Shown in pieces: positions 5,497-63,370 of a stretch of 64,000 bases of DNA. Source of the DNA: Erysipelotrichaceae bacterium (GTDB lineage Bacteria > Bacillota_I > Bacilli_A > Erysipelotrichales > Erysipelotrichaceae); contig JAFULQ010000006.1 of assembly GCA_017473265.1 (NCBI GenBank), positions 1 through 64,000 of the forward strand, written 5' to 3'. The notes below the pieces were generated by a model, which ran no database searches, was not told the origin of the DNA, and saw only the letters and a list, made by a program, of their open reading frames with translations. How positions within the stretch are numbered: the stretch's first letter is position 1; each line of letters opens with the position of its first letter. The position numbers and the translations under genes are program-made.

Positions 5497-5790
5497 CTAC
5501 TTCACCACCCTTGGTAAAACAATGAAATCTTGACGAGCAGTTTTCGCATTCTTTAATGCATCTTCTACACTCAACACATTGTCCACTTCATCTTCACGCA
5601 TAAAACTTGTAGGCGCTTCAAATGGATAAATCATTTCTTCCACACCATCTGTATTAATTGCTTCTAATAATTCTAATTGTTTTTCTAAAACAACAAATTC
5701 AGCTTGTACATTTTCTAATTCTTCGTCAGTCATATCAAACATTAATTGGTTTGCTAACTTACGAAGAAATTCTTTGTCATATTTATTCAT
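5497..5790 (-). CDS. gatC: aspartyl/glutamyl-tRNA amidotransferase subunit C
   Basis: 97 residues, the small belt subunit that wraps GatA and GatB together. It shows the family pattern 'LANQLMFDMTDEELENVQAE' and a C-terminal stretch 'MREDEVDNV...A...F.VPRVV'-like ending 'FIVLPRVVK'. It is the first gene of gatCAB; gatA begins directly at its stop codon. Confidence 0.93.
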   Translation of the reverse strand: MNKYDKEFLRKLANQLMFDMTDEELENVQAEFVVLEKQLELLEAINTDGVEEMIYPFEAPTSFMREDEVDNVLSVEDALKNAKTARQDFIVLPRVVK

Positions 5791-5826
5791 AACATAACCT
5801 CACTTATATTCGCTTTATTATAGCAC

Positions 5827-7830
<2,004 letters not shown>

Positions 7831-9963
7831 CTATTTCTTCGTAATGGATGGATGATTCACCATAATGGTTTTAATGCCATGAGGAAAACTAAAGACAACA
7901 TCCATCATATTCCCTTTCACTTGTATCACTTGTCCATCTCCAAAGACTGTATGCACAACCTTATCTCCAGTTTTGAATGCTCCAGGTTTACGTTTTTGCA
8001 CTGGTTGAGCAACAGGCTCTTTAATACTAAAGGTACTTCTTTGGAAATCTTTATTACTAAAATTAAATCCTGCATGTTCAATATATTGCTCATCAATTTC
8101 ATTAATAAAACGAGACGCCGTACGAGCACGACTTAGTACATAGGAATACCCTTGTGGTTCTGTTAAATATAACTTATTCTTCGCACGAGTATAGGCTACA
8201 TAAGCTAGACGTCTTTCTTCTTCCAAACCTTTAGTACCTTCCATTAGTGTACGTTCACTTGGGAATACTCCATCACTTAAACCACAAACAAAGACATAAT
8301 CAAACTCTAATCCTTTTGATGCATGCACCGTCATTAATTGTACAAAATCCGCATCTTTATCCATATCATTTTTATCCATATACAAATTAATCATTTGTAA
8401 ATATTCACTTAAATCACTATCTGGATAATTCAACATAAAATCATGTAAATCATTCATCAATTCCTTAATATTAGAAATACGGTCTTCATCTTTACCATCT
8501 TCCAACATCTTACGATAGCCACTCTCTTCAAATACCATCTCTAATATTTTGTCTAATGGCATCGCAACCATACGCTTTTTCCAATCTTCAATCAAATCAC
8601 ATAACTTACGTAATTCATTTTCCGTTTTTCCTTTAAATAATCCAGGACGTTTCATGACATCATACATAAAGACGCGTTCTTTACGTGCAATTTCTAATAA
8701 GGTATCCGTTGTTTTGTTACCTAAACCACGTTTTGGAACATTGATAATACGTTTAAGTGCTAAATCATCGCCACCAACTAATACACGTAAATAACTTAAA
8801 ATATCCTTAACTTCTGCACGATCATAGAATCGAATACCACCATAAATAACATATGGTACATGGAAATCCAATAATCCTTTTTCAACAGAACGTGAAATAT
8901 AGTTTGCACGATACAATACCGCAATCTTACTATAGTTTACCCCACGCTTATGTAAATCCACAATTTGTTGGGCAATCCATAAAGCTTCCGCATCTTCACT
9001 AACGGCTGTATAATGCGTAATCTTTTCTCCTGGATCTTTACGAGAGAACAAATCCTTCTTTACACGTTCTCTATTGTTTTTAATTAAACTATTAGCACCA
9101 TTTAGAATCATTGGTGTACTACGATAGTTTTCATCCAATACAATCGTTTCACATGGTGAAAAATCACGCTCAAAATGCATGATAATTTCTACATTCGCAC
9201 CACGCCAAGTATAAATCGTTTGGTCAGGATCACCTACTACATACACTTGATTATGAGCACCAGCTAATTGTTGAATCAATTCATATTGTACATTATCAAT
9301 ATCTTGGAACTCGTCCACTAAGATGTATTGAAAACGATATTGCCATTTAGCTAATACATTTTCATGTAACTTAAACATGCGCACTGTCCACAATAACAAA
9401 TCATCAAAATCCAATGCATACATCGATTGTAAACGTTCTACATAATACTTATAGACTTCCGCTTTATCCATTTCCTTACGTAAGCCATTAGCCATTTTCA
9501 TTGCTTGTTCATAGCTAATTTCAGCTGATTTATTATTAGAAATATAATCTAAAGCAGCACTATAACTTAAATTCTTAACATCAATTTCTAATTCCTTATA
9601 TGCCTCTTTTAAGACACTCTTTTGATCATCCGCATCCAAAACTGTAAAATTCTTGGGCATATTCATACACATAATATCTTCACGCAAAATACGTACACAC
9701 AAAGCATGAATCGTAGAAATATGAACACCAAAGCCTTTAACACCTAACATTGTTTCCACACGTTGTTTCATTTCTCTAGCAGCCTTATTAGTAAAAGTAA
9801 TTGCACAAATTTTCTTAGGATCTGCGCCAATTTCTTCCACTAAAAAAGCAATACGCGTCGTTAAAACACGCGTCTTACCACTTCCAGCCCCAGCAATAAT
9901 ACGTACATAGGGACTACTAGAAGTAACCGCTCTTTTTTGATTTTCATTTAAATTAGTCAACAT
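7831..9963 (-). CDS. pcrA: ATP-dependent DNA helicase PcrA
   Basis: 710 residues, a superfamily 1A 3'-5' helicase of the UvrD/PcrA branch, used in repair and plasmid or fork processing. Walker A 'AGAGSGKT' is at 24-31, the Walker B/motif II reads 'YILVDEFQDID', motif III 'VVGDPDQTIYTWRGA', and motifs V and VI are 'LMTVHASKGLEFDYVFV' and 'EEERRLAYVAYTRAKNKLYL'. The C-terminal Tudor-like domain ends with 'GDKVVHTVFGDGQVI', typical of PcrA. It is the first gene of the pcrA-ligA pair. Confidence 0.97.
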   Translation of the reverse strand: MLTNLNENQKRAVTSSSPYVRIIAGAGSGKTRVLTTRIAFLVEEIGADPKKICAITFTNKAAREMKQRVETMLGVKGFGVHISTIHALCVRILREDIMCMNMPKNFTVLDADDQKSVLKEAYKELEIDVKNLSYSAALDYISNNKSAEISYEQAMKMANGLRKEMDKAEVYKYYVERLQSMYALDFDDLLLWTVRMFKLHENVLAKWQYRFQYILVDEFQDIDNVQYELIQQLAGAHNQVYVVGDPDQTIYTWRGANVEIIMHFERDFSPCETIVLDENYRSTPMILNGANSLIKNNRERVKKDLFSRKDPGEKITHYTAVSEDAEALWIAQQIVDLHKRGVNYSKIAVLYRANYISRSVEKGLLDFHVPYVIYGGIRFYDRAEVKDILSYLRVLVGGDDLALKRIINVPKRGLGNKTTDTLLEIARKERVFMYDVMKRPGLFKGKTENELRKLCDLIEDWKKRMVAMPLDKILEMVFEESGYRKMLEDGKDEDRISNIKELMNDLHDFMLNYPDSDLSEYLQMINLYMDKNDMDKDADFVQLMTVHASKGLEFDYVFVCGLSDGVFPSERTLMEGTKGLEEERRLAYVAYTRAKNKLYLTEPQGYSYVLSRARTASRFINEIDEQYIEHAGFNFSNKDFQRSTFSIKEPVAQPVQKRKPGAFKTGDKVVHTVFGDGQVIQVKGNMMDVVFSFPHGIKTIMVNHPSITKK

Positions 9964-10039
9964 CGAAAATCACCTCGCATAACATTATACCAAACTTCTT
10001 AAACATCCGCATATCAACTTACCATAATTCTTTACGTTG

Positions 10040-10068
10040 TCAAAAAAAGATGACAATAGTCATCTTAT
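10040..10068. repeat. 29-nt direct repeat, copy 1 (terminator of the PBECR-like gene)
   Basis: The 29 bases here are repeated at 10950-10978. Each copy contains the hairpin AAGATGAC-tatt-GTCATCTT (minus strand) followed by seven T, so each is a minus-strand Rho-independent terminator (10042-10066 here). The two copies bracket the RNA plus nuclease cassette. Confidence 0.9.
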
Positions 10069-10074
10069 GTCTCA

Positions 10075-10452
10075 TTACAATTTATATGTAAAACTCTTCT
10101 TTTTCAATTTATCCTTTTTAATGTCATTTATCGGATAGAGCGTTTTCACCTTTAATTCCAAACAATCAGCCACTCGAACTGCTACCAATGTATTATCTAA
10201 CAGTTTCTTAACAAATTCTAATGAATTATTTTTACTATCATAGACAATAAACTCTGGATTTTGAATAATATCATCCAAACTTTTTACTGAATAATCATAG
10301 GAACTATAATTTAAAAACTCAGATTGATGCTTAGCAAAATGTGCATATCTTTCTTTATAAACCACAATCATTTTACCTAAATATTCATTTGGTAAATTGT
10401 GTTTTCTAATATAATTCTCATCCATAGTCATTATTTTCCTTTTAGTTTTCAT
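10075..10452 (-). CDS. small PBECR-like nuclease (barnase/EndoU/colicin E5-D/RelE-like), putative
   Basis: About 125 residues, basic. Visible pattern: 'VYKERYAHFAKHQSEF', then 'LDDIIQNPEFIVYDSKNNSL', then 'FVKKLLDNTLVAVRVADCLE' and 'KVKTLYPI'. This His-rich start, the 'NPxFI' turn and the final strand with T-x-YP match my memory of PBECR3/PBECR4-type domains, a group of small RNase-like folds found in mobile elements; the call is by pattern only. ATG 10452 is chosen because GAGGTG (10459-10464) lies 6 nt before it. The gene stands alone between a terminator upstream (10507-10536) and one downstream (10042-10066), behind a structured RNA, an arrangement like type III toxin-antitoxin loci or a riboswitch-controlled gene. 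Confidence 0.5.
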   Translation of the reverse strand: MKTKRKIMTMDENYIRKHNLPNEYLGKMIVVYKERYAHFAKHQSEFLNYSSYDYSVKSLDDIIQNPEFIVYDSKNNSLEFVKKLLDNTLVAVRVADCLELKVKTLYPINDIKKDKLKKKSFTYKL

Positions 10453-10506
10453 CATCAGCACCTCATACAACTTTTGCAAAAACAAACATTATCTTCAATG
10501 CCAATT

Positions 10507-10536
10507 GATAAAAATAGCCCCAATTATTATTGGGGC
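10507..10536 (-). terminator. terminator between the 99-nt RNA and the PBECR-like gene
   Basis: On the minus strand GCCCCAAT-aata-ATTGGGGC (10536-10517) is followed by TATTTTTATC. The strong GC stem and T-run sit between the RNA element and the gene start, so read-through or release would set gene expression. Confidence 0.8.
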
Positions 10537-10550
10537 ATGAATACTAAACA

Positions 10551-10649
10551 AAGTACATTTGGTGGGGCGATAGTTCCCACATCTCATCGGTTACCCTACA
10601 CTTGACACTTTCATGCGCGATAGCCATCTTTCTATCCTCAAATGTACTT
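10551..10649 (-). ncRNA. 99-nt stem-closed structured RNA of unknown class
   Basis: The ends form a perfect 10-bp stem (AAGTACATTT with AAATGTACTT). Inside, on the minus strand, GATAG pairs with CTATC and GTGGG with CCCAC, separated by a well-mixed, unusually GC-rich stretch ('GGGTAACCGATGAGATG') in an otherwise AT-rich gap. A promoter (10660-10688) lies just upstream and a terminator 14 nt downstream. It has no long open frame. I checked it by eye against the riboswitch cores I know (SAM, TPP, purine, c-di-GMP, guanidine, T-box) and found no match. It could be an aptamer, an RNA antitoxin or a free-standing small RNA. Confidence 0.65.
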
Positions 10650-10659
10650 ATATACTTAT

Positions 10660-10688
10660 TTTATATCATTTTTCCAAAATAAGTTCAA
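10660..10688 (-). promoter_or_regulatory. sigma-A-type promoter for the 99-nt RNA
   Basis: On the minus strand TTGAAC (10688-10683), a 17-nt spacer and TATAAA (10665-10660). The start of transcription would fall within about 10 nt of the closing stem of the RNA. Confidence 0.7.
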
Positions 10689-10949
10689 CTTCAATAAGGT
10701 AGATATATATCATCAACTGACAAATATATTCTAACAAATTTCCTGATGTTATTTGTCTCAAGTTTGTATCTAAATTTTCCACAAATTCACATAAATGAAA
10801 TTTATATTTCCTGTGTTCCAGCACATAATTAAAAAGCTAACTTTTACCATTCGTACATATACAACATGTTAATTATGTACGATTGTAAACAACTATAAAG
10901 TCAACTTCACCTTTTAAAGATTATCAACTTAATATAAACCTTTAAGTTA
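10689..10949. other. AT-rich gap without a recognised gene
   Basis: About 260 bases between the small-RNA promoter and the terminator of the next gene. I see no open frame with a ribosome site and no further strong hairpin followed by T. Confidence 0.5.
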
Positions 10950-10978
10950 TCAAAAAAAGATGACAATAGTCATCTTAT
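10950..10978. repeat. 29-nt direct repeat, copy 2 (terminator of the 10975-11844 gene)
   Basis: Identical over 29 bases to 10040-10068. The minus-strand hairpin AAGATGAC-tatt-GTCATCTT with a T-run terminates the membrane-protein gene; its stop codon (10975-10977) lies in the stem. Confidence 0.9.
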
Positions 10979-11844
10979 AATTTCGAAACATCTATATTTA
11001 GTTGTAACATTTCATTTAATACTTGAATCGCACCCATATAACTTTCATCTGCATATCTTCTTTTATCCGGTCCAATATAGATAAATTCTGGTTTATCTTC
11101 ATATATTAAAACAAACAAAACATGCTGTTCATGTCCCTCTTCTAATAACCATTGTTCCCAATTTGACTGATTTTTCTCTTTAGGATCAATCATAACAACA
11201 AAAATCTTATTAATTGGTTTAGGTGGCAAAGAAAGATCTCTTTTCAAATACTTATCTTCTTTTTTACCACAAAATAAATTAATAACAGGTGCGCATTGTG
11301 CATTCACATTTTTTACATTCGACAAACGAATTTCTTTTTTGATTCCATAACGTGTATACCCAATATTTTCAGCATAATACATATTCGAATAATAAACACC
11401 AATCACTTCTATAGGATTTGAATCATTTGTGTACATCGTAAAATATTCATCATTTCTCGTATCATTCAAATACAACTCCTGTTTATGATAACGATGATTA
11501 CTCGCATATTGATTCACTTTACATAACAAATCATTATAATCATCAATACCAGATACAAGTTGAATCGGCGCAGGCAATTCACTTTCTTCTATACCAGTTT
11601 TATACATTATGTCCATACCTATACTAAATACACCAAAAAATAGTACAAGCCAAGCAATCTCTGAATAAGCTACCATACCTTCAAATAATACTTTAGTCAA
11701 AAATGGTTCAATAACTGAATAAAGACATAGAATCACAAACGATAGAATAATAAAACTTATACCTAAAAAATATCGATTTCTATAACGTCGAAATTTTTGT
11801 ACTCTTTCTCTATTTATATCCTTAATTTTCTCATAATTACTCAT
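10975..11844 (-). CDS. membrane protein of unknown function, two N-terminal helices
   Basis: 289 residues. A basic N-terminus is followed by two membrane helices (about 27-46, 'FLGISFIILSFVILCLYSVI', and 62-81) and a cytoplasmic part of about 200 residues with strands such as 'KIFVVMIDPKE' and 'HVLFVLIYEDKPEFIYIG'. No catalytic motif is visible. The gene is divergent from the methyltransferase gene at 11982 and ends in its own terminator, so it is probably a single-gene unit. Confidence 0.65.
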   Translation of the reverse strand: MSNYEKIKDINRERVQKFRRYRNRYFLGISFIILSFVILCLYSVIEPFLTKVLFEGMVAYSEIAWLVLFFGVFSIGMDIMYKTGIEESELPAPIQLVSGIDDYNDLLCKVNQYASNHRYHKQELYLNDTRNDEYFTMYTNDSNPIEVIGVYYSNMYYAENIGYTRYGIKKEIRLSNVKNVNAQCAPVINLFCGKKEDKYLKRDLSLPPKPINKIFVVMIDPKEKNQSNWEQWLLEEGHEQHVLFVLIYEDKPEFIYIGPDKRRYADESYMGAIQVLNEMLQLNIDVSKL

Positions 11845-23135: not shown

Positions 23136-23226
23136 GGAGTAGTACTCAAGAGGCTGAAGAGGTGCCCCTGCTAAGGGTATAGGCCGGGAAACTGGTGCGA
23201 GAGTTCAAATCTCTCCTACTCCGCCA
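23136..23226 (+). tRNA. tRNA-Ser(GCU)
   Basis: Acceptor GGAGTAG pairs with CTACTCC, discriminator G, encoded CCA. Anticodon stem CCC/GGG-type arm with loop carrying GCT (serine AGC/AGU codons). A long variable arm (AGGCCGGGAAACTGGT region) is present, as required for class II tRNA-Ser. First of six tRNA genes in the cluster. Confidence 0.95.
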
Positions 23227-23233
23227 TTCTTTT

Positions 23234-23309
23234 GGTCCAGTGGTGTAGTGGTTAACATGCCTCCCTGTCACGGAGGAGATCGCGAGTTCGATCCTCGTCT
23301 GGACCGCCA
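23234..23309 (+). tRNA. tRNA-Asp(GUC), copy 1
   Basis: Acceptor GGTCCAG/CTGGACC, discriminator G, encoded CCA. Anticodon arm CCTCC-CTGTCAC-GGAGG gives GTC. Identical by eye to the copies at 23492 and 23744. Confidence 0.97.
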
Positions 23310-23315
23310 TTTTTT

Positions 23316-23389
23316 GCAGGTGTAGTTTAATGGTAGAACATGACCTTGCCAAGGTCAATGCGGGAGTTCGATTCTCCTCACCTGCTCCA
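23316..23389 (+). tRNA. tRNA-Gly(GCC), copy 1
   Basis: Acceptor GCAGGTG/CACCTGC, discriminator T, encoded CCA. Anticodon arm TGACC-TTGCCAA-GGTCA gives GCC. Identical by eye to the copy at 23573. Ends unit 1. Confidence 0.96.
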
Positions 23390-23400
23390 TGAGATAGTTA

Positions 23401-23430
23401 AAGTCATCAAATTGATGACTTTTTTATTTT
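23401..23430 (+). terminator. terminator of tRNA unit 1
   Basis: AAGTCATC and GATGACTT form a stem followed by TTTTTATTTTTT. Confidence 0.85.
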
Positions 23431-23452
23431 TTAAAAAATTTTAAAAATATAC

Positions 23453-23481
23453 TTGCAATTATATATTACCTATGCTAATAT
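23453..23481 (+). promoter_or_regulatory. promoter of tRNA unit 2
   Basis: TTGCAA, 17-nt spacer, TAATAT, 10 nt before tRNA-Asp copy 2. Confidence 0.8.
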
Positions 23482-23491
23482 ATTACAGCAC

Positions 23492-23567
23492 GGTCCAGTG
23501 GTGTAGTGGTTAACATGCCTCCCTGTCACGGAGGAGATCGCGAGTTCGATCCTCGTCTGGACCGCCA
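23492..23567 (+). tRNA. tRNA-Asp(GUC), copy 2
   Basis: Same sequence by eye as copy 1, with GTC anticodon and encoded CCA; first gene of unit 2. Confidence 0.97.
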
Positions 23568-23572
23568 TTCAT

Positions 23573-23646
23573 GCAGGTGTAGTTTAATGGTAGAACATGA
23601 CCTTGCCAAGGTCAATGCGGGAGTTCGATTCTCCTCACCTGCTCCA
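23573..23646 (+). tRNA. tRNA-Gly(GCC), copy 2
   Basis: Same sequence by eye as copy 1, GCC anticodon, encoded CCA; second gene of unit 2, 5 nt after tRNA-Asp. Confidence 0.96.
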
Positions 23647-23669
23647 TTCAAATTACTGACATAGCTATG

Positions 23670-23695
23670 GAATCATCGAAAGATGATTCTTTTTT
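23670..23695 (+). terminator. terminator of tRNA unit 2
   Basis: GAATCATC-gaaa-GATGATTC followed by six T. Confidence 0.88.
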
Positions 23696-23704
23696 AAAAA
23701 AATG

Positions 23705-23733
23705 TTGCATTTATATGCTTCATATGTTAATAT
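23705..23733 (+). promoter_or_regulatory. promoter of tRNA unit 3
   Basis: TTGCAT, 17-nt spacer, TAATAT, 10 nt before tRNA-Asp copy 3. Confidence 0.8.
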
Positions 23734-23743
23734 TTTTTAGCAC

Positions 23744-23819
23744 GGTCCAGTGGTGTAGTGGTTAACATGCCTCCCTGTCACGGAGGAGATCGCGAGTTCG
23801 ATCCTCGTCTGGACCGCCA
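23744..23819 (+). tRNA. tRNA-Asp(GUC), copy 3
   Basis: Third copy of the same tRNA-Asp, alone in unit 3, GTC anticodon and encoded CCA. Confidence 0.97.
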
Positions 23820-43573: not shown

Positions 43574-44893
43574 TCACTCCTTTCCTTGAAACATTCCCAA
43601 AAAGGAAAAACTCTCAAGATTGAAAGGAGACTTTTCAATCATACCTTTACTATATAAAGCCTTCACACTATAGTTACCGTTCTTAATCCAAGGAACAATT
43701 GTACAATCTCTAGACAAAAAATCAATCGATTTTTTAGAAGACTCTAACACTTCCATAGGGCCTAAATTATGCGTAGTAAAACACAATTGTCCTTTACCAA
43801 ATTTTATAAAATATTCCAACAATTTACACAAGTAAACATCATGAATATTTGCATCCAACTCATCAATAAACACAATATCGCCATTTTCAACATGACACAA
43901 AGCTTTATACAATCTCACTAACTTTTTAATACCTGTACTTTCAAACTCACCATGCAATTGATAATCATCATAAGCAAATACCAAATCACAAAGATAGCTA
44001 TCCTTAAGCTCTTTTCTATCAATATAAATATCTTTTAAATCAGGCTTAAACACCTTAATAAAATCCTTCAAATTACTAACAATATTCTCATATGAAATAA
44101 ACGTTTGTTTCGGAATAATCATATTAGAAACACGCAAATGATTAACACTAAACAAATCAGAAGAATCAATCCTTTGATTTTCTTCTAAATACTCCAATAA
44201 AACATTAAATACATAGTCATCATGAGAATCTTCTTTATCTAAAAATGAATAAACCTTTAAAGAGAATATAATCATCGCAAAAATAGCCTCAGTAAAACTT
44301 GAATCTTTATTCATATCCATCATTACTGCATTCGAAATAAAGCTATCTTTTAAAAGTACAATCAAAGATTGCGTTAACAATAAATTCTTTGTGCTCTCTG
44401 TAATAAAGTCACTCAATTTCTTAGAACTTACACTCAAAGATAAAACTCCATTTTGAGAACAAATAATATTACTCCACTTAGCACTTGAAGAACGCTGCAT
44501 CTCAAGTTTTTCTTCACTAATAATAATCTTACGATCACTAACACGCTTTAAAACTACACTATACTTATAAATACCAAAAACATTTGTTTGATACACAAAT
44601 TCACAAGAAATAGATAACTCATTCGTTTTCTTATTAATCAATTCATTCAACAAAACCAATGACTCTGAATTCGATAAATAATTAGGGTTATTCAACAAAT
44701 TTGTCAAAACACTTACTGCAGTAATTATAGCCGTCTTACCAACACCATTCTCACCATAGATGGCTTTTACTTTGTAATTCGTTGGATCAAAATTATTTTT
44801 AGAAACAACCTTCTTATAAAACTCTAATTCAATTTCCTTATCAATATTTTTAATCCCACACAACCTCAAGCTCAATAAAAATATCTGTTTCAT
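43574..44893 (-). CDS. AAA family ATPase (AAA15/RloA/AbiLi-like), defence-associated
   Basis: 439 residues. Walker A 'YGENGVGKTAI' lies at 46-56 and Walker B 'DIVFIDELDANIHDVYL' near 340, followed by 'GQLCFTTHNLGPME' (switch His). This is the SMC/OLD-like fold of AAA15 ATPases such as RloA, AbiLi and AriA, which guard a nuclease or toxin partner. The neighbouring Toprim-like gene fits this. GGGAGG precedes ATG 44893. It is the first gene of its unit. Confidence 0.78.
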   Translation of the reverse strand: MKQIFLLSLRLCGIKNIDKEIELEFYKKVVSKNNFDPTNYKVKAIYGENGVGKTAIITAVSVLTNLLNNPNYLSNSESLVLLNELINKKTNELSISCEFVYQTNVFGIYKYSVVLKRVSDRKIIISEEKLEMQRSSSAKWSNIICSQNGVLSLSVSSKKLSDFITESTKNLLLTQSLIVLLKDSFISNAVMMDMNKDSSFTEAIFAMIIFSLKVYSFLDKEDSHDDYVFNVLLEYLEENQRIDSSDLFSVNHLRVSNMIIPKQTFISYENIVSNLKDFIKVFKPDLKDIYIDRKELKDSYLCDLVFAYDDYQLHGEFESTGIKKLVRLYKALCHVENGDIVFIDELDANIHDVYLCKLLEYFIKFGKGQLCFTTHNLGPMEVLESSKKSIDFLSRDCTIVPWIKNGNYSVKALYSKGMIEKSPFNLESFSFLGMFQGKE

Positions 44894-54044: not shown

Positions 54045-55148
54045 TCATTCAATCACATACTTATTTCTTAAACTATTTAAAGAACTATTATAATTTACAT
54101 AATTATCTTTTTGTAATCTACCTACAATAATACCTGGTAGAACACGAATTTTACTTGCAAATGAAAGTATTGTATCTATAGTAAAGCCCTCACCACTTGC
54201 AATAAACTCATCATAATCCTTCTTAGGAATTAGCGTATTTCTAGAGAATTCATCCGCATCACATTCAAGTTTATACATTACATCATTCATATCTAGTGCT
54301 TCTTTATTATTCTCACTTACTAACAATACTTTTATACGTTGTTGTAACACATGCCCTAATTCATGAAATAAAGCAAACCAAAAGACATCAGCAAACTTTC
54401 TTCTATCATTTAGCGCTAAAACAACTTTTTCTTTATTTATCCACTTTACCGCCCCATTGATACCACAATTCTTTAAATTAGGCAATAAAACCAAAACAAC
54501 TCCACAATCAGCTAATAATTGAACAAGTTTAGGCATAAAAACATCGGTATTTTGAATAGTCATTTCACGAATAACAGGAATCGCCTTAAGCAATTTTTTC
54601 CTATTATACGAATTAACAATTCGACTTTTACCAATATTTATAGCTGTTTGTACCCACGCATTAGCATTTATTACATTCACATCACTTATATTAGAAATAC
54701 TCGTACGATACTGTACTAAAAAGTCTCTTTGATTCAAAACACTAAGAGAAGCAACTTGAAAAAACTTTTGAAGTTCTTCTACTTTTTCAGTTAATACTTT
54801 AGTATCTTTGACCAAACCTAAATTCTTCCAAAATCTATAGTCAATCTGTTTCGCAATCTCACATTCATCATCAATTTTCATCTTTTTCTCAATTTCAAGT
54901 TTCTTCTCAATATACTTTTGATTTAAATTTAACCACAATTTTGTAGAAGTACCAAAAACCGTACTAAGTCTTAAAACCATATCATCCGTTAATGATATTC
55001 TACCATTCACCAAATCACTCACATATTTACTAGATACTTGAAGACGTTTCGCCAACTCATCTTGAGAAATTTGTTGATCATCAATATAATCCTTAACATA
55101 ATATCCAGGATGAAAAGCCAGCAATTCTTTATATTCAATTTTACTCAT
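54045..55148 (-). CDS. HigA-like antitoxin fused to ImmA/IrrE metallopeptidase domain
   Basis: 367 residues. N-terminal addiction-module helix-turn-helix ('LAFHPGYYVKDYIDDQQISQ', 'DELAKRLQVSSKYVSDLVNG') followed by a helical linker and a zinc peptidase domain 'WFALFHELGHVLQQRI' with the HExxH motif and 'ECDADEFSRNTLIP'. It neutralises the toxin encoded just upstream (8-nt overlap), represses the operon, and may be cut or regulated by its peptidase part, as in other ImmA-containing antitoxins. Confidence 0.88.
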   Translation of the reverse strand: MSKIEYKELLAFHPGYYVKDYIDDQQISQDELAKRLQVSSKYVSDLVNGRISLTDDMVLRLSTVFGTSTKLWLNLNQKYIEKKLEIEKKMKIDDECEIAKQIDYRFWKNLGLVKDTKVLTEKVEELQKFFQVASLSVLNQRDFLVQYRTSISNISDVNVINANAWVQTAINIGKSRIVNSYNRKKLLKAIPVIREMTIQNTDVFMPKLVQLLADCGVVLVLLPNLKNCGINGAVKWINKEKVVLALNDRRKFADVFWFALFHELGHVLQQRIKVLLVSENNKEALDMNDVMYKLECDADEFSRNTLIPKKDYDEFIASGEGFTIDTILSFASKIRVLPGIIVGRLQKDNYVNYNSSLNSLRNKYVIE

Positions 55149-55521
55149 AATGCTTCGTTACCTCCCATGCTATTATTACTTTTGTCATTTTATATATACT
55201 ACTCAAATTCTTTTCTTTCCATTCATGACCATTTTCATCCAATGGAATAATAATTAAACGATATGAGGATGTTCTACCAGCAATATCCAATGCATATTGT
55301 CCTTCCCTATTACCTAATAACGGATGTAAATGATACTGTTTCATTTGGGCTATATCTTGAAGAGTATCAGCACTTTCTATTAAGTTAATTAAAGCATGTA
55401 ACTTTTCTGCTACAATAGAATTTAACTCTTTTCTAGCCTTCTTGTAATTTGTGCACAAATCTTCAACCTTTTTATTTCTATACTCAATCTCGATAATAAT
55501 CACCTCATTTTTTCTTACCAT
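55141..55521 (-). CDS. HigB/RelE-superfamily toxin
   Basis: 126 residues. 'EIEYRNKKVEDLCTNYKKAR', 'HPLLGNREGQYALDIAGRTS' and 'YRLIIIPLD' match HigB-like killer proteins of the RelE fold. Start uncertain: ATG 55521 has no ribosome site and lies in an operator-like palindrome (55515-55529) close to the predicted transcription start. A good GAGGTG follows five codons later, in front of ATT-ATT-ATC codons, at the place where relatives usually begin, so initiation at a rare start codon is possible. Confidence 0.85.
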   Translation of the reverse strand: MVRKNEVIIIEIEYRNKKVEDLCTNYKKARKELNSIVAEKLHALINLIESADTLQDIAQMKQYHLHPLLGNREGQYALDIAGRTSSYRLIIIPLDENGHEWKEKNLSSIYKMTKVIIAWEVTKHYE

Positions 55522-56011: not shown

Positions 56012-59000
56012 CTAATCAATTTCTAATACAGTATTTTTGCCAAGATGATAATTTGAAAAATCCATTAATGAATTTATACTATCATTAACAAACAATTCAT
56101 AAGATGTCATATTTGTAATACCACATGATGTTAACCAATCCCAATGTGTTTCTAATTTAGCATTATAAAGATTGGTCAACTTATGGGAATTTGTTCCTCG
56201 AAAATAATATAAACATAAAATTTCAATATCGTTACTAACATAATAAAACTCTTCAACATTTGATAATGAAGGAGAATCTATTATATTTATAAACAATTTC
56301 ATCCAATCATCTTGTGTAAAAAACATGTAATACCTTTCTATTAATTCGTCTAATCCTTCAAAGTGGTATCCATATTTCCTTTTTCTAATTATATATTCAA
56401 CAACACAATTCGAAACAAATTTATTATTATCCAAATTAATTATATTTCCAATAGTCAATAATAATTGTACTTGACTACAATACACATTAGAAAAAGTAGA
56501 AACTATCTTTTTCTCTATTTGATCATCATAACCATTTTTACATATTTCATCAAGAAACAATTTATCATTTTCACTATATTTTTTAACTTCACCATCACTT
56601 TCTTTGTTTATTTTTGAAAAATGTTTATGATAAGATTTTAGTTTTTCATAAAGTTTTATATCTTTAATATTTTCAATTATTTTGTAATTATACTTTCGCA
56701 AATAATCCGTTCGATTATCTCCATAACGGTTGCTACATTCAATATTTTCATTAATCCATGCATTTACAATTTCATATAATGCTAAGAGTTCACAATCCAT
56801 AAGTTCCTCATTAATCAACTTTTTATAATAAGCATCCAAAAAGCATTGTCTCCAATGGTAGAATTCCTTAGGATTATTCTTAAATTCATATAAAGCATTT
56901 ATATGTTTAACTCCCAAATCAATAGCCGTATCAAAAAGAGCACTTTCAATCCTACTAGACATACGATTATCTCCTATTGAACAAGCCTTATCTGAAATTG
57001 CTAGCAAAGACATTCCATATTTGTGTAATTTAGTTTCAGATTGAGGCAGACACTCATAACATTTCAACAATCCATTTAAAGAATAATCTTTATGATTGAC
57101 ATAGCCAAGAAGTTTAAATAAAATACATTTTTCTATTACATTAGCACGTTCTTTTTTGTTAAATTTCAATAAAATATTAACAATATTTCTGCCTATATAT
57201 TCAACATTATCATATGAGTTATACCAAAGGATTCCTTCTGATCCACACCAGTATTCTGCAATATCTAAAAAGTCTTTTTCATCTTTAGATAAATAAAACA
57301 ACTCACTTAATTCACATATATAGCATGCATTTGCGAATAAAAACAAATCTTTTATTTTTCGGCATAAATTTAACAAATCTTTCTCAGTTTTTCTTGCATA
57401 TGTATAATATAAAATACTTTTCAAAAACTTCATAATACTTATAGCATTACAGTCGATACATGCTCCTACTCCATATTGGCGATCAAAATAAACAGTGCGG
57501 TATATCATTTCTATCTGAATATCATTATCTAAATTCCCTTCGAAATAATCTTTACATATTATCTTAAAAAGCTTAAATTGTTCAATTGCTGGAGTATATC
57601 CTCTATCTTTATCTTTTATATGGTTTTGCTCTAAAATATCTAAATAAAGTTGAGGTATATTATCATAATGTTTGTATTTTTCATATAAACAAAAACAGCA
57701 TTTTACCCAATAGATTATTTTATCAACCTTAATTTCAAATTCATCTGATTCTAGTATTTCAAATTCTCTTAATGAAATCATTTGTTGAAGTTTTTCAACA
57801 TTATAACCATTAAACAATCCATACACACACAAATCAATAATTGATGAGATTGTTATATTATGACTTCCATTTACATATATTTCACTTAACACATCAAAAG
57901 ATTTCTTATTTAATCTTTTCTCACCACAAACTCTTTTTGTATAGTTATTCAAAAAATCATATTGATAATATTTAAAAGTGAACGTCTTGTATATTTCCTT
58001 TTCGTCAACAAAATGAGAACTGGCATCAAGCCACCCTTTAACATAATGAATATATTTATTATGACCCACTTCATCTTTTAGTTCCATAATATTTCGCGAA
58101 AAAAATCTACATATATATCCTACTTGTTCAATGCATTCATTCTTGATAGAATCCCAATTAAGAATTAAATAATCATCAAGTTTAATCAAACTCAGATATT
58201 CATCGTATACTTTCTTTGCACGCAATCTCTGTCCCTTTTTTAATAATACATATATATCTTTAACAATCGTATTCATTTTATCTTTAATAGATAATATATA
58301 TTTTTCAGATTCTGTTTTTCTCAAAATAAATTCCGCATCATAAATCAAATCATCTTTTTCATTATATTGAATATTATTTATATATTGTGAAATGGTTAAA
58401 GCAGCAAAGCTAATTTTATCTACATATTCTAAAGAATCATTTTCAATCATTAGCTTAGCCAATGAATTAAACTGTCGAATAAGTTTATTGACTGACACAT
58501 TATACTGAATAGATTTAATAATATATTTTGTAGAAAATAGTTCAAACACATGTTGCTTATCATGCATTATGTATAGCATATCAAAAGCAATATCATATTT
58601 GTATCTATCTAACTCTTCATATACCATAATATTATTGTAAATTGATAAAGCAAGTTGTTCATAATTACTGTGCGAAACCATCAATTCTTTAAAAAATAAT
58701 CTGACATCATTATGGAATACATAATATTCATCTGAATCACATGTAATAATAGGATATAATTGATTTAAAATATAAACAACTTCTTCCGATTTTTCCCCAC
58801 ACATTCTCGCAATATCACTTACTTTCGTTTTCTGTGAAGTGAACGCAAAAATAATTTTTATCTTTAATAATAGAATACCTCCATTAGTTACCGAAGACAC
58901 TATCCAATCATAGTATCTATCAATTTGATTATTTAGATTTCTTTCTTGAAGAAAAGAAATTATTGAATCAAAAGTATAGGATTCTTTAAATCTTTTAATT

Positions 59001-60475
59001 TCACGAATAGAAAATAATATATTTAATGCATTATTACCAACAACTTCAATTATACTTTTGGTCAAAGAGACCCTATCAACATTTGGAATATCAATAGATT
59101 CATTAAATAAAAGCATATTTACATCTAATTCATTAAGCACAGGCAAAACAATGTATTCAATTTGGTTATTGTTAATTAGACCACTAGGATATTTATCGTT
59201 AACAGGCTGACCTACTAAAATAAATTTAACATTTCCATTTATTTCATTTGGAAATGGTAGTTGATATAAAAATGAGTTTCGCGAGTTATATGATCTTGCA
59301 GCATGATCTAATCCGTCAATGAATAAATAGCATGTCCTACCCAAAACTTCTGCATATTTAGGTAAAAAGCTTAAAACTTTTTCTCTCATTTCTGTTATTG
59401 ATAAATAATCAAAAATCAAAGGAAAATCAAATTTATATAAAAGGTTATGTTTTTCAAAACCTTCTTTTAATTGATGTAATAAACTTCTCCAAAGCAAATC
59501 ACCTGTGTAATATCCTTCATCATCACTAAAAGTTGGATATTCCTTAGAAACAGGTAAATATGTGTAAAACCTAAAATCAACTATAGAATCAGTTAGTTGT
59601 GCTAAATAACTTACAAAATTTGTTTTTCCAGATCCAGGCAATCCTTGTAAGAAAATTATTTTTTCATGACTGTTCTTTATTTTTTCTATAAATTCCCTAG
59701 CAAATGTTTCTCTAGATGGAAAAATCGGTTTTTCTGGATATAATTCATAGTTAGGAATTATTTTAGAAGCAACACAAAGAGCATTGTATATGTCTTCTCT
59801 AAATATTTCTTGTTGTTTTCTTTGTGATGTAGACCACAAGCTTAATTTAGCCAAAAGACTATTTGTCGCTCTATCTATGGCTTCTTTTTTGTCTGTTCCT
59901 AATAATTTCGAAACACATTTTCGTATTTCGAGTTCAACATCTGATAAATCCATTTCCTGATAAAAGTTTAATATCTTAACAAATTCAAAAGAATCTTGAT
60001 TTAAACACTTAATTTGTTTTTTAAACCAATCTAATGCTTCGTTTTCACTTTTTACCTTACTTTGATATCTATAATCAAGTTGAAATTTTGGCCATACATC
60101 TTCTATAAATTGTTTGAACGAACATTTTGTTCCACTTATCCTATTCCCCCACTTTCGATTAGTAACAATTCGAATTTCTCTAATATTATGTGTTTTTCTA
60201 ATTTCACTCCATTCTTTAATCCATTTCTCTAACATAGGCTTATCACCATTTGTTAATGTTGAATAAGTGAAATTGTCTTCTACATCTGTATGCTTTACTT
60301 GGATATTAGTTATTGTTCCATCTATATAATTAACAACAACATCATCTAATGAAACAAAATCCTCTGATTGCAAAATAACTGATTGTATATTTGAATCTCT
60401 CATCATTTTTAAACATTCTAATAATCCTATTTCCCATTCATACCAATATGGCGTTCCGCTTCCAGCGATATTCAT
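56012..60475 (-). CDS. Avs-like STAND/NACHT NTPase with DUF4297/Cap4-like nuclease domain
   Basis: About 1487 residues. The N-terminus matches DUF4297/Cap4-type dsDNA nucleases: 'GTPYWYEWEIGLLECLKMM', 'SVILQSEDFVSLDDVVV' and 'ITNIQVKHTD' (D...QxK, PD-(D/E)XK core, about residues 30-62). The NTPase follows: Walker A 'GLPGSGKT' at 278-285 and Walker B 'YLFIDGLDHAAR' at 383-394, then winged-helix-like parts and about 900 residues of helical repeats as the sensor. This is the plan of Avs proteins, which bind a phage protein, assemble and cut DNA. Start at ATG 60475, 8 nt behind AAGGTGG, in TAATG with the upstream stop. Confidence 0.82.
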   Translation of the reverse strand: MNIAGSGTPYWYEWEIGLLECLKMMRDSNIQSVILQSEDFVSLDDVVVNYIDGTITNIQVKHTDVEDNFTYSTLTNGDKPMLEKWIKEWSEIRKTHNIREIRIVTNRKWGNRISGTKCSFKQFIEDVWPKFQLDYRYQSKVKSENEALDWFKKQIKCLNQDSFEFVKILNFYQEMDLSDVELEIRKCVSKLLGTDKKEAIDRATNSLLAKLSLWSTSQRKQQEIFREDIYNALCVASKIIPNYELYPEKPIFPSRETFAREFIEKIKNSHEKIIFLQGLPGSGKTNFVSYLAQLTDSIVDFRFYTYLPVSKEYPTFSDDEGYYTGDLLWRSLLHQLKEGFEKHNLLYKFDFPLIFDYLSITEMREKVLSFLPKYAEVLGRTCYLFIDGLDHAARSYNSRNSFLYQLPFPNEINGNVKFILVGQPVNDKYPSGLINNNQIEYIVLPVLNELDVNMLLFNESIDIPNVDRVSLTKSIIEVVGNNALNILFSIREIKRFKESYTFDSIISFLQERNLNNQIDRYYDWIVSSVTNGGILLLKIKIIFAFTSQKTKVSDIARMCGEKSEEVVYILNQLYPIITCDSDEYYVFHNDVRLFFKELMVSHSNYEQLALSIYNNIMVYEELDRYKYDIAFDMLYIMHDKQHVFELFSTKYIIKSIQYNVSVNKLIRQFNSLAKLMIENDSLEYVDKISFAALTISQYINNIQYNEKDDLIYDAEFILRKTESEKYILSIKDKMNTIVKDIYVLLKKGQRLRAKKVYDEYLSLIKLDDYLILNWDSIKNECIEQVGYICRFFSRNIMELKDEVGHNKYIHYVKGWLDASSHFVDEKEIYKTFTFKYYQYDFLNNYTKRVCGEKRLNKKSFDVLSEIYVNGSHNITISSIIDLCVYGLFNGYNVEKLQQMISLREFEILESDEFEIKVDKIIYWVKCCFCLYEKYKHYDNIPQLYLDILEQNHIKDKDRGYTPAIEQFKLFKIICKDYFEGNLDNDIQIEMIYRTVYFDRQYGVGACIDCNAISIMKFLKSILYYTYARKTEKDLLNLCRKIKDLFLFANACYICELSELFYLSKDEKDFLDIAEYWCGSEGILWYNSYDNVEYIGRNIVNILLKFNKKERANVIEKCILFKLLGYVNHKDYSLNGLLKCYECLPQSETKLHKYGMSLLAISDKACSIGDNRMSSRIESALFDTAIDLGVKHINALYEFKNNPKEFYHWRQCFLDAYYKKLINEELMDCELLALYEIVNAWINENIECSNRYGDNRTDYLRKYNYKIIENIKDIKLYEKLKSYHKHFSKINKESDGEVKKYSENDKLFLDEICKNGYDDQIEKKIVSTFSNVYCSQVQLLLTIGNIINLDNNKFVSNCVVEYIIRKRKYGYHFEGLDELIERYYMFFTQDDWMKLFINIIDSPSLSNVEEFYYVSNDIEILCLYYFRGTNSHKLTNLYNAKLETHWDWLTSCGITNMTSYELFVNDSINSLMDFSNYHLGKNTVLEID

Positions 60476-61146
60476 TACATATTCCACCTTTCATCTACAA
60501 GCATACAGATATTAAAGAAATATTCTTTTATATCATTCTTTGAGAAATTAATACGATACCCTTTTATCAATGAATCAATCAAATATTTTACTGACAATGT
60601 ATAATCATATTCATTTATATTCAAATCTGATAGTTTTAAAATGTTTTTAGTAAATTTACAAAGCTCTTCATAGTTTATAGGTTCATATAATACAATCTCG
60701 TTCATATCAAGCAGTCTATTTCTACGCATCGGCGAATCGATTATATTGTTGCACAATTCTATAAATGGATTACTTTTTTCGAAAACATCATCATCAAGAA
60801 GAAATTGCCATTTAATAAAAAAAGACGACCACAACTTACCCGTAAGAACTTTAATATTATAATTTACTAATGCGTCTTTTAGAGATGTTGGCATTTGATT
60901 ATATGTCCCTTCAAATATTACAACTTTGTCTTCTTGTATATCAATAGGAAAAAAACATTTAGTAATTTTCTCTATTAACACATAGCCGCACACGCAATAA
61001 TATTTACTTATTTCTATAATAGCATTACGTTCCAATAATACACATCCACATACTAAGTCATCGTCATAGTTTTCTTTATTTAAACGTCTGAAATTATTTA
61101 AAAATCCATCATATACTAACAATTCATTAACCATGCCTTTTACCAT
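60475..61146 (-). CDS. small partner gene of the Avs-like system, unknown
   Basis: 223 residues, mostly helical, with hydrophobic strands ('YYCVCGYVLIEKITKCFFPI', 'DKVVIFEGTYNQMPTSLKDA') and a C-terminal helical half. No membrane helix is certain. It ends in TAATG, sharing one base with the start of the NTPase gene, so the two proteins are made together. It could be an adaptor, a regulator or a second sensor. I know no family for it. Ribosome sites before both ATG 61146 and ATG 61134 are weak. Confidence 0.65.
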   Translation of the reverse strand: MVKGMVNELLVYDGFLNNFRRLNKENYDDDLVCGCVLLERNAIIEISKYYCVCGYVLIEKITKCFFPIDIQEDKVVIFEGTYNQMPTSLKDALVNYNIKVLTGKLWSSFFIKWQFLLDDDVFEKSNPFIELCNNIIDSPMRRNRLLDMNEIVLYEPINYEELCKFTKNILKLSDLNINEYDYTLSVKYLIDSLIKGYRINFSKNDIKEYFFNICMLVDERWNM

Positions 61147-61290: not shown

Positions 61291-61650
61291 TCAGTTCAAC
61301 ATCAGCTGATAACCAATCAACACACTATACAATGTATCTTTAGTTAAACACTTAGCGCTCTCATGTTCTTTTAATACCAAATCACCTGAAACTAATTTAC
61401 ATACAAAACAATCTATACCTAAATGAAACTTAGGATAATCATACTCTACTGTATGTAATAGTTCATGTACTTCTACAATAACATTTAACTCTTCCACGAT
61501 TTCTCTTTTTAAAGCATCCTGTGGAGTTTCATTATCTTCTACTTTACCACCCAAAAACTCCCAATCACCTTTAAAATCACCATATCCTCTTTGAGTCGCA
61601 AATACTTTATTAGCATCTATAATGATAGCTGCTACAACTTTAACCATCAT
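61291..61650 (-). CDS. Nudix hydrolase (MutT-like), C-terminus frameshifted
   Basis: 119 residues as it stands. The Nudix box is complete ('GGKVEDNETPQDALKREIVE' then 'ELNV'), preceded by 'VVAAIIIDANKVFATQRGYG', like 8-oxo-dGTP or CTP pyrophosphohydrolases. At residue about 108 the frame slips: the usual end VDWLSADVELIPLV is present but two bases out of frame, behind a GTGTGT run (near 61320-61325). Removing one GT restores a protein ending at 61247. The catalytic part is intact, so partial activity is possible. Confidence 0.82.
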   Translation of the reverse strand: MMVKVVAAIIIDANKVFATQRGYGDFKGDWEFLGGKVEDNETPQDALKREIVEELNVIVEVHELLHTVEYDYPKFHLGIDCFVCKLVSGDLVLKEHESAKCLTKDTLYSVLIGYQLMLN

Positions 61651-61917: not shown

Positions 61918-63237
61918 CTAAATACTCATCAATCTAGTATACCTTGCAAATTCCTTATAAAAATAAAATATTTCTTGTTTGTCTTTATTTTCATCAACTA
62001 TATATGGCATATTAGGTTTACCTATTAACTCAAGTCCTTCCAAAACAATATAGAGTATTACATCAATTGAACTATTAAGATTTAATTTCGTTTTTAGTAA
62101 TGATTTCTTCAAAAGTTTTTTAACATAAACACCTAGATTAGAAATAGGATTATTACCAGTATTAGGATAAATATTATGCCTATTTTTTTCTTTTTCACAT
62201 GCAATTTTACATGCAAACAATAAAATTTCACCAACAAGACACTCTTTTGAAAAAATAGAAGTATCTTGATTCACCAATCCATGACATATCATTGCATTAG
62301 TATATACTCTCTCAAAATCTCTTGCTGACATATTCTTGCAAAGATTTGAAAGGATATCATCACATAAACTTGCATCTCCCTCATTAGAGAATAAATCAAA
62401 ATAAGGTTTTAGTGTTATATTTATTGCTTCAATTTCTCCTTCACCGACACTTAATTTAAGGCGAAAATCAAAAAATTTTCTAACATATGACTCATATGAA
62501 ACTTCTTTTCCAAACATTTTTTCAACATTGTTTCTTAATTGTTTATCATTAACCGCAATTACAGTTACCGAATGTTGCACTTTACCAAAAATATGGTGTA
62601 ATCTTTCCAACGTTTTAATAGAATAATTTGGCAAGCATCTATCAATTTCATCCACAATAAACACTATAGGCATGCTTTTAGACACATTATTTAGAGCAGT
62701 AATCACGGTTTTAATATCCTTTTCAACATTTTCCAAATAATTTGCAGTAAGCTCTTTTTTTAAATTTCCTTTAAAATCTTCATATATTTCCTTACTACGT
62801 TTAGCAATTTCAATAACATCGATTCCAATTAGTTTTTTAGACATACTTTTTAAAGCGTCTTCTAAAATATCTTTAGTCTGGTTATACAACGTTTTGATTT
62901 CAGCAGTAATAATATCATTAAGCATTATTTCATCATTTATTTGATTAATTAAAGTAATCATAATTGCCAATAAAGGTTCTTCATAATAATCTTTTTCCCA
63001 TGCATTATATTTAATTACTAAATAATTCGAATCATATTTTTTAGGAGTTTTTTCTACAGATAGATTCATACCTTTAATACTTTTTTCAACTTTATCTAAA
63101 ATCCAAGTTTTGCCGCAGCCCCATTCACCTTCGATTGAAAATGAAGAGTTCTTGTCCATTGCAATACATGTTTTAATAATTTCAACTATGTCTTTAACCT
63201 CTTGGTTTCTTATTAAATAATCACCATATATTTTCAT
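61918..63237 (-). CDS. KAP family P-loop NTPase
   Basis: About 439 residues. Walker A 'SIEGEWGCGKTWILDKV', then 'LVIKYNAWEKDYYEEPLLAI', and Walker B 'PIVFIVDEIDRCLPNYSIKT' followed by 'VTVIAVNDKQLRNNVEKMFG', the KAP signature. KAP NTPases in bacteria occur in defence islands and often at the membrane, but no helix is inserted here. GAGGT precedes ATG 63237. Confidence 0.87.
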   Translation of the reverse strand: MKIYGDYLIRNQEVKDIVEIIKTCIAMDKNSSFSIEGEWGCGKTWILDKVEKSIKGMNLSVEKTPKKYDSNYLVIKYNAWEKDYYEEPLLAIMITLINQINDEIMLNDIITAEIKTLYNQTKDILEDALKSMSKKLIGIDVIEIAKRSKEIYEDFKGNLKKELTANYLENVEKDIKTVITALNNVSKSMPIVFIVDEIDRCLPNYSIKTLERLHHIFGKVQHSVTVIAVNDKQLRNNVEKMFGKEVSYESYVRKFFDFRLKLSVGEGEIEAINITLKPYFDLFSNEGDASLCDDILSNLCKNMSARDFERVYTNAMICHGLVNQDTSIFSKECLVGEILLFACKIACEKEKNRHNIYPNTGNNPISNLGVYVKKLLKKSLLKTKLNLNSSIDVILYIVLEGLELIGKPNMPYIVDENKDKQEIFYFYKEFARYTRLMSI

Positions 63238-63370
63238 AATATACCTCACTGACACACACATTATTTACATATAAATTGTAACATGTGATTCTACAATAAG
63301 GTATAAAATGAGCTATTAATATACAAAAATACAGTGAGAATATCTACTTTTTAATATACTCCATAAAACT

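Follow-up and report, generated by a model that had tools for sequence, protein, structure and literature searches.

Does a large protein that joins a nuclease to a STAND NTPase act as an antiphage sensor of the Avs (antiviral STAND) type, and what would a small protein encoded directly upstream contribute to it? This question is raised by two genes on the minus strand of the window, i.e., the whole stretch of 64,000 nt of contig JAFULQ010000006.1 (assembly GCA_017473265.1, Erysipelotrichaceae bacterium) that was analysed. According to the available parts of PMC12931631 and PMC12198126, Avs1-4 recognise phage packaging proteins and their oligomerisation activates the nuclease; the scheme given there for Avs proteins runs from ligand binding through STAND oligomerisation to nuclease activation. 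Because of this scheme, the large protein is read here as a latent nuclease that would be released by infection. We put at about 0.6 the probability that the gene pair is a two-gene antiphage Avs system, composed of a latent Cap4-type dsDNA nuclease-STAND sensor and a dedicated partner subunit.

Gene pair and architecture of the large protein

The partner gene lies at 60475..61146 (minus strand) and encodes 223 aa, with Met5 at 61134 as an alternative start. The nuclease-STAND-helical-repeat gene follows on the same strand at 56012..60475, giving 1487 aa from its ATG. The list of open reading frames places the start of the large protein at a GTG at 60487. The ATG at 60475 is nonetheless the likely true start, because its methionine is invariant in 6/6 orthologues, a AAAGGTGG motif resembling a ribosome-binding site precedes it, and it forms a TAATG with the stop codon of the partner. 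In this TAATG (60473..60477), the last A of the partner's TAA is also the A of the ATG, and the two genes are thus likely to be translationally coupled. The junction is similar in the orthologues, as five of the six loci have an overlap of 1-8 nt and the sixth (L002) has a gap of 1 nt.

The first 237 residues of the large protein (59765..60475) form a Cap4/DUF4297 nuclease domain. When residues 1-1200 were used as the query, Pfam Cap4_nuclease (PF14130) matched residues 10-208 with 39.3 bits against a gathering score of 26.2 (E 1e-9). The same family was not reported by hmmscan against Pfam with the full-length protein as the query, which is put down to the HMMER filters. The D ... (Q/E)xK active-site pattern of Cap4/DUF4297 PD-(D/E)xK nucleases can be read in the sequence, and the block D44-D45...Q59-V60-K61 (60293..60346) is the putative active site. 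E13 (60437-60439), D44, D45, Q59 and K61 are unchanged in all ten aligned sequences, V60 being the one position of the block that varies. Fold comparison by VIA agrees with this assignment, with Z scores of 15.1 for the HerA-DUF4297 structure 9c1m, 14.8 for Cap4 (7yib) and 14.4 for LmuA (9nxx).

A STAND NTPase and a winged-helix-like part occupy residues 241-610 (58646..59755). NPHP3_N, a STAND/NACHT type NTPase family, exceeds its Pfam gathering score over residues 262-401, both with the full-length protein and with residues 1-1200, and the predicted model of this region matches NLRs and STAND proteins in Foldseek and VIA. The Walker A motif GLPGSGKT spans residues 278-285 (59621..59644) and the Walker B motif DGLD spans D387-D390 (59306..59317). 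In 9/9 rows of the alignment, G278, P280, G281, G283, K284 and T285 of the former, and D387, G388 and D390 of the latter, are invariant.

The remaining residues, 611-1487 (56015..58645), constitute a helical repeat region of about 880 mostly helical residues, in which helices are modelled up to residue 1200; this region is the likely sensor. It was modelled with AlphaFold2 as part of residues 1-1200 (five models, 8 sequences; pLDDT 73.8, pTM 0.46). The model consists of an alpha/beta nuclease, the NTPase and then helices, and from about residue 450 up to its end at residue 1200, it is all helical apart from one short hairpin. The nearest solved structure is 8dgc, Avs3 bound to terminase (Foldseek E 2.3e-16). 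By VIA, residues 2-1124 of the model align to residues 2-1150 of the 8dgc chain with a Z score of 15.8 over 736 residues, and since the rmsd is 39.9 (TM-score 0.20), the match is to be taken domain by domain and not as one rigid body. The large protein is thus predicted to be Avs3-like in its whole-chain fold, a resemblance at the level of fold only. An N-terminal effector, a central STAND NTPase and C-terminal helical repeats in a single chain are the Avs architecture, and all three are present.

These results bear on an original prediction made from the nucleotide sequence of this stretch. Both reading frames are present on the minus strand where it had placed them, and the TAATG through which it had coupled the 223-residue upstream protein to the large one can be read directly. 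The DUF4297/Cap4-like nuclease that it had named scores above the Pfam cut-off with its putative active-site residues aligned and invariant in 10/10 sequences, and the succession of nuclease, STAND NTPase and helical repeats is recovered by the Pfam matches to the first two parts and by the helical model up to residue 1200.

A further protein may be of structural interest. PDB entries 9n00, 9n01 and 9yix describe a solved 1523-aa ‘AAA family ATPase’ with the same DDVV...QxK nuclease pattern before its P-loop; it is matched weakly (9n00, E 0.14) and is possibly a structural relative of the large protein. No paper on 9n00 turned up via its entry codes.

Relation to known defence systems

Avs3 (AVAST type 3, 8dgc) resembles the large protein in its N-terminal Cap4-like nuclease, STAND NTPase and long helical repeats. 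It differs in length, the 8dgc chain having 2028 aa against 1487 aa here, and in that the present protein has an upstream partner with no family match. At the level of sequence, 8dgc was not listed when the PDB sequences were searched by hmmsearch with two alignments of the large-protein family (E up to 1 and E up to 10). The PADLOC search of the large protein reported no Avs2-5 model, a result to be read with the models seen by name, which were Avs1b, Avs1c and Avs2 only. PADLOC-DB presumably contains an Avs3 model too. Among these profiles, Avs1b matched the NTPase stretch at residues 250-455 (PADLOC E 1.2e-8 with residues 1-1200; not listed for the full length), and the NCBIfam model NF041810 (Avs1b) reached E 3.4e-5 on this stretch, far under its cut-off. 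For the kinship with Avs proteins that had been predicted, the profiles give a weak Avs1b match within the NTPase and no reported Avs2-5 match.

AVAST type 1 shares with the present pair a similar NTPase (Avs1b) and, as described in the available part of PMC12799240, a separate upstream gene. However, its Avs1b starts with a trypsin-like protease, whereas the large protein starts with a Cap4 nuclease and no protease domain was reported in it by Pfam. Its upstream Avs1a is an MBL-fold nuclease, whereas none of the partners has an MBL match in Pfam and 0/6 has one in PADLOC. Because neither the protease nor the MBL partner is found, the pair is judged from its sequence not to be a member of AVAST type 1. 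The Avs1c model of PADLOC has just 86 positions.

The nuclease fold itself is common, being shared with HerA-DUF4297, LmuA of Lamassu and Cap4 of CBASS at VIA Z scores of 14-15 over about 185-208 residues. What sets these systems apart is the sensing part, which is an SMC protein in Lamassu and a SAVED domain in CBASS Cap4. In HerA-DUF4297, it is a HerA ATPase, and none was reported in or beside the large gene. Similarly, no SMC family (LmuB) was found among the seven proteins of the locus scanned with Pfam, and behind the nuclease there is a STAND NTPase, with no SAVED domain by Pfam.

The original prediction would have failed had the repeats led to a known family with the same partner. Instead, the fold is Avs3-like, the searches reported none of the Avs2-5 profiles, and the partner could be assigned to no known family or fold: the 223-residue protein, which had not been recognised earlier, has no convincing match in Pfam, PADLOC, NCBIfam, solved folds or viral folds. 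In the titles and abstract openings that the literature search returned, no Cap4-STAND protein with such a partner is described; as these cover the Avs papers incompletely, they are weak evidence of novelty. We place the pair in a clade of two-gene systems, in which a Cap4-STAND protein resembling Avs3 goes with a partner of unmatched fold; the resemblance to Avs3 is one of fold and is seen at that level only.

The partner protein and the clade that carries it

The AlphaFold2 model of the partner (pLDDT 80.9, pTM 0.79) predicts a beta-rich part at about residues 10-80, helices at 87-147 and C-terminal helices at 159-222. C53-G54, D69 and E79 are invariant in 6/6 partners. Membership of a known family was considered and rejected on a series of searches. 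No convincing family was found in Pfam (best E 0.3, SRA, for one of the six members), no model in PADLOC matched any of the six at E<=1, and NCBIfam gave no match to the window partner, which was the sole query. In PHROGs, the best match (E 0.0073) concerned one member of six and was not consistent between members. No PDB sequence matched at E<=5. Among PDB folds, the best E was 1.3 and the best VIA hit, to the RC3H2 ROQ domain, covered 93 residues in the helical part at a Z score of 4.2; as the VIA list covers mainly residues 126-223, an unmatched N-terminal part is no proof of a new fold. The search of viral folds gave no clear match (best E 0.75).

Five relatives of the large protein came from one contig scan, out of 18 pattern matches. 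They belong to Tyzzerella, Ruminococcus (two), Christensenellaceae and another Clostridiales genome, with 38-44% identity over the best segment. Since the scan needs exact short peptides, the partner-bearing clade is surely larger than the six members found. All five relatives carry an ORF of 215-225 aa directly upstream of the large gene, 33-43% identical to the window partner. The partner is thus directly upstream in 6/6 members from five separate lineages, with a different set of outer neighbours from locus to locus, and this linkage strongly suggests that the partner belongs to the machine.

Relatives of the nuclease-STAND protein that have no partner also exist. Four out of four lack it: L024 (1950 aa), L025, L033 (1527 aa) and L008 (1963 aa, on a Leptospira plasmid), on which the partner profile gave E 0.049 or worse. 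This count leaves out the fragments L026, L027, L028 and L032, remnants of 48-117 residues, as well as L009 of L. noguchii, in which the nuclease is missing and the partner profile hit the STAND protein itself at E 0.0058, judged to be noise. In L025, the 1950-aa type of protein is encoded by two ORFs (1018 and 948 aa) that overlap (5696-11579); the gene may truly be split, or a frameshift or an error of sequencing may have divided it. When a tree was built from residues 1-660 of 13 proteins, the six partner-bearing members fell into one branch (100/100) and the four partnerless ones outside it. The simplest history is that the ancestor of the clade acquired the partner once. The partner thus marks a clade, and the suggestion that it may define a subtype gains support.

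The longer relatives, i.e., WP_000203570.1 (1963 aa, Leptospira plasmids) and L024 (a genome in the family of G650), show homology along almost all of the window protein (hhalign, 1372 columns, E 8.6e-95). They differ in having about 460 further C-terminal residues and no partner. Two explanations relate the partner to this extra C-terminus. That it is a split-off piece of the extra C-terminus was rejected at the sensitivity of hhalign, which gave a probability of at most 0.3%, and that outside the C-terminus in question. That it substitutes for the extra C-terminus is weakened by L033, which is short and yet without a partner; therefore, the partner and the missing C-terminus are not strictly exchangeable.

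Few of the searched genomes have members of the family; the samples may overlap between searches. The window partner was found in 2/315 genomes, its own and G226, in a search of its own order; the second hit (E 3e-4, 96 aa of an 858-aa frame) is judged to be noise. The partner profile found 1/392 genomes of the phylum (its own) and 1/74 in the family of G654 (the seed). For the large protein, the searches gave 1/347 (the seed), 6/397 (the seed and five others, three being fragments), 1/46 (the seed) and 3/391 (the seed, G1651 and one fragment), and no match in viral contigs or phages. Away from the large gene, the partner was found in none of the genomes, plasmids, phages and viral contigs searched.

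Conservation is uneven along the two proteins. Over the 10 pairs of five full-length members (L005, cut at a contig end, was left out), mean identity is 59% in the NTPase core, 49% in the nuclease, 44% in the winged-helix part, 30 and 36% in the repeats and 27% at the C-terminus; for the partner it is 35%. Within the partner (15 pairs), residues 156-223 average 42%, residues 6-60 39% and residues 101-155 25%. In the closest pair, L003 and L005, which come from Ruminococcus albus AR67 and a related Ruminococcus MAG, identity is 65% in the partner against 87% in the nuclease, 96% in the NTPase and 86% in the repeats. The partner divergence of this pair sits in residues 1-162, residues 163-189 and the promoter side being nearly identical. 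Its dN of 0.23 and dS of 0.93 indicate that the partner is under purifying selection. Synonymous divergence is raised in the same partner stretch (pS 0.47-0.83 vs 0.14), and residues 91-150 of the nuclease show a similar divergent patch. Because of these two features, allele exchange is held to account for a part of the divergence. At the DNA level, positions 451-900 and 1351-1500 of L003, in the partner and the nuclease gene, are 63-71% identical to L005 between flanks of 91-97%, in the manner of a mosaic. A fast-varying N-terminal part of the partner is suggestive, being seen in this one pair.

Role of the partner and genomic setting

In the mechanism proposed here, the large protein would combine in one chain a Cap4-type dsDNA nuclease that stays latent, a STAND NTPase and a sensor made of helical repeats. 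The 223-aa protein would be a subunit dedicated to it, whose synthesis would precede that of the large protein and be kept in step with it by the gene overlap. On infection, the repeats would bind a phage ligand, most likely jointly with the small protein; the NTPase would bind ATP and the large protein would oligomerise. The nuclease domains, thus brought together, would cut phage and host DNA, resulting in abortive infection. In the partner, the conserved C-terminal helices are probably what attaches it to the large protein; the other two thirds, N-terminal and variable, probably touch the ligand or control how the sensor is reached. For the role of the partner, we infer a preference for a recognition or adaptor subunit, with an inhibitor next and a second effector third. 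Recognition is favoured over inhibition because, in the closest pair, variability is highest in the first 160 or so residues, and because the C-terminal helices are conserved.

A more specific form of this idea is a split immune receptor: the nuclease-STAND engine would be conserved, and its aim would be set by an exchangeable, fast-changing 223-aa subunit of new fold, which would vary in its N-terminal part and dock by a conserved tail. It is put forward tentatively and is doubtful as a whole. PMC12931631 describes direct recognition of a phage protein by the known Avs proteins that carry a nuclease; a split receptor, if true, would mean that a part of recognition has moved into a separate small protein in this clade. 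Such a clade, in which the partner was never missing and, between the two closest members, varies more than the sensor, could reveal how these receptors acquire new specificities or are kept silent. The existence of partnerless relatives makes the role of the partner testable by simple genetics.

The partner could alternatively be a safety catch that keeps the nuclease-STAND protein inactive, like an antitoxin, and is displaced or destroyed on infection. An antitoxin gene usually precedes its toxin gene, and here also the partner is upstream, made first and coupled to a presumably toxic gene, while the longer partnerless relatives could inhibit themselves through their extra C-terminal residues. 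On the other hand, L033 has neither that C-terminus nor a partner, and a variability as high as that of two thirds of the partner would be surprising in an inhibitor that has to fit a conserved surface. This makes an inhibitor unlikely.

It is more unlikely still that the partner is a second effector or modifies the ligand or DNA enzymatically, in a place like that of the Avs1a nuclease upstream of Avs1b. This reading has a precedent in the upstream effectors of AVAST type 1 and Hachiman (as far as the available part of PMC12799240 describes them), and C53-G54, D69 and E79 could be functional residues. Against it, the partner matches no enzyme family or fold, its variable N-terminal part would be unlike an enzyme core, and the large protein has a nuclease already.

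The surroundings bear on what the system would be directed at. Within about 40 kb of the same contig, Pfam and PADLOC identify a type I methyltransferase, McrBC, a type IV restriction-like protein and the candidates PDC-S53, PDC-S20 and PDC-S07. The island also holds an AbiLi-like ATPase (43574-44893) and a UvrD/GajB-like helicase (45158-48355). Close to the pair, all on the minus strand, are a HigB/HigA-like pair (54045..55521; PADLOC PD-Lambda-2_B, E 9.4e-29), whose HigA-like protein has a peptidase-like C-terminal part, a Nudix protein of type PDC-S07 (61291..61650), which is probably outside the system, and a KAP NTPase of type PDC-S20 (61918..63261). The gene pair is thus situated in a defence island, and the orthologous locus L006 adjoins an AbiLi/RloB pair. 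That the target is plasmids or other mobile elements and not phages is improbable, and ranks below a second effector. A conflict between elements would be plausible because relatives of the nuclease-STAND protein sit on Leptospira plasmids and beside recombinase-like genes (assigned by eye), but the island is one of phage defence and the closest fold is that of Avs3, solved bound to a phage terminase. Least probable of all is that the partner is a bystander, simply carried along with the nuclease-STAND gene. The rarity of the family would fit this, but adjacency is kept in 6/6 loci of five separate lineages with different outer genes and an overlap in five, and the partner is under purifying selection.

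Some further features of the contig and of related loci were observed. The PDC-S53 helicase candidate lies beside the window system (L036 2586-5306, contig 63586-66306; E 1.5e-290). In L024, what remains of another member of this family, its C-terminal part (6148-6531, E 3.9e-51), is found immediately upstream of the partnerless relative. A second, very similar Nudix gene of type PDC-S07, noticed by eye, is present about 7 kb from the first (G000:C25 68670-69053); from these two genes, the island may have grown by duplication. Inside the island, a gene with a TROVE domain (Ro60-like, Pfam E 1.2e-8) overlaps an RtcB RNA ligase gene (E 5.3e-66) at 51015-53847 on the plus strand, a pair of the RNA-repair type, and a WYL-domain protein (49562-50569, minus strand; PADLOC E 9.6e-12) is a possible regulator. 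At 23136-23819 on the plus strand, there are six tandem tRNA genes, in which the Asp and Gly copies are repeated.
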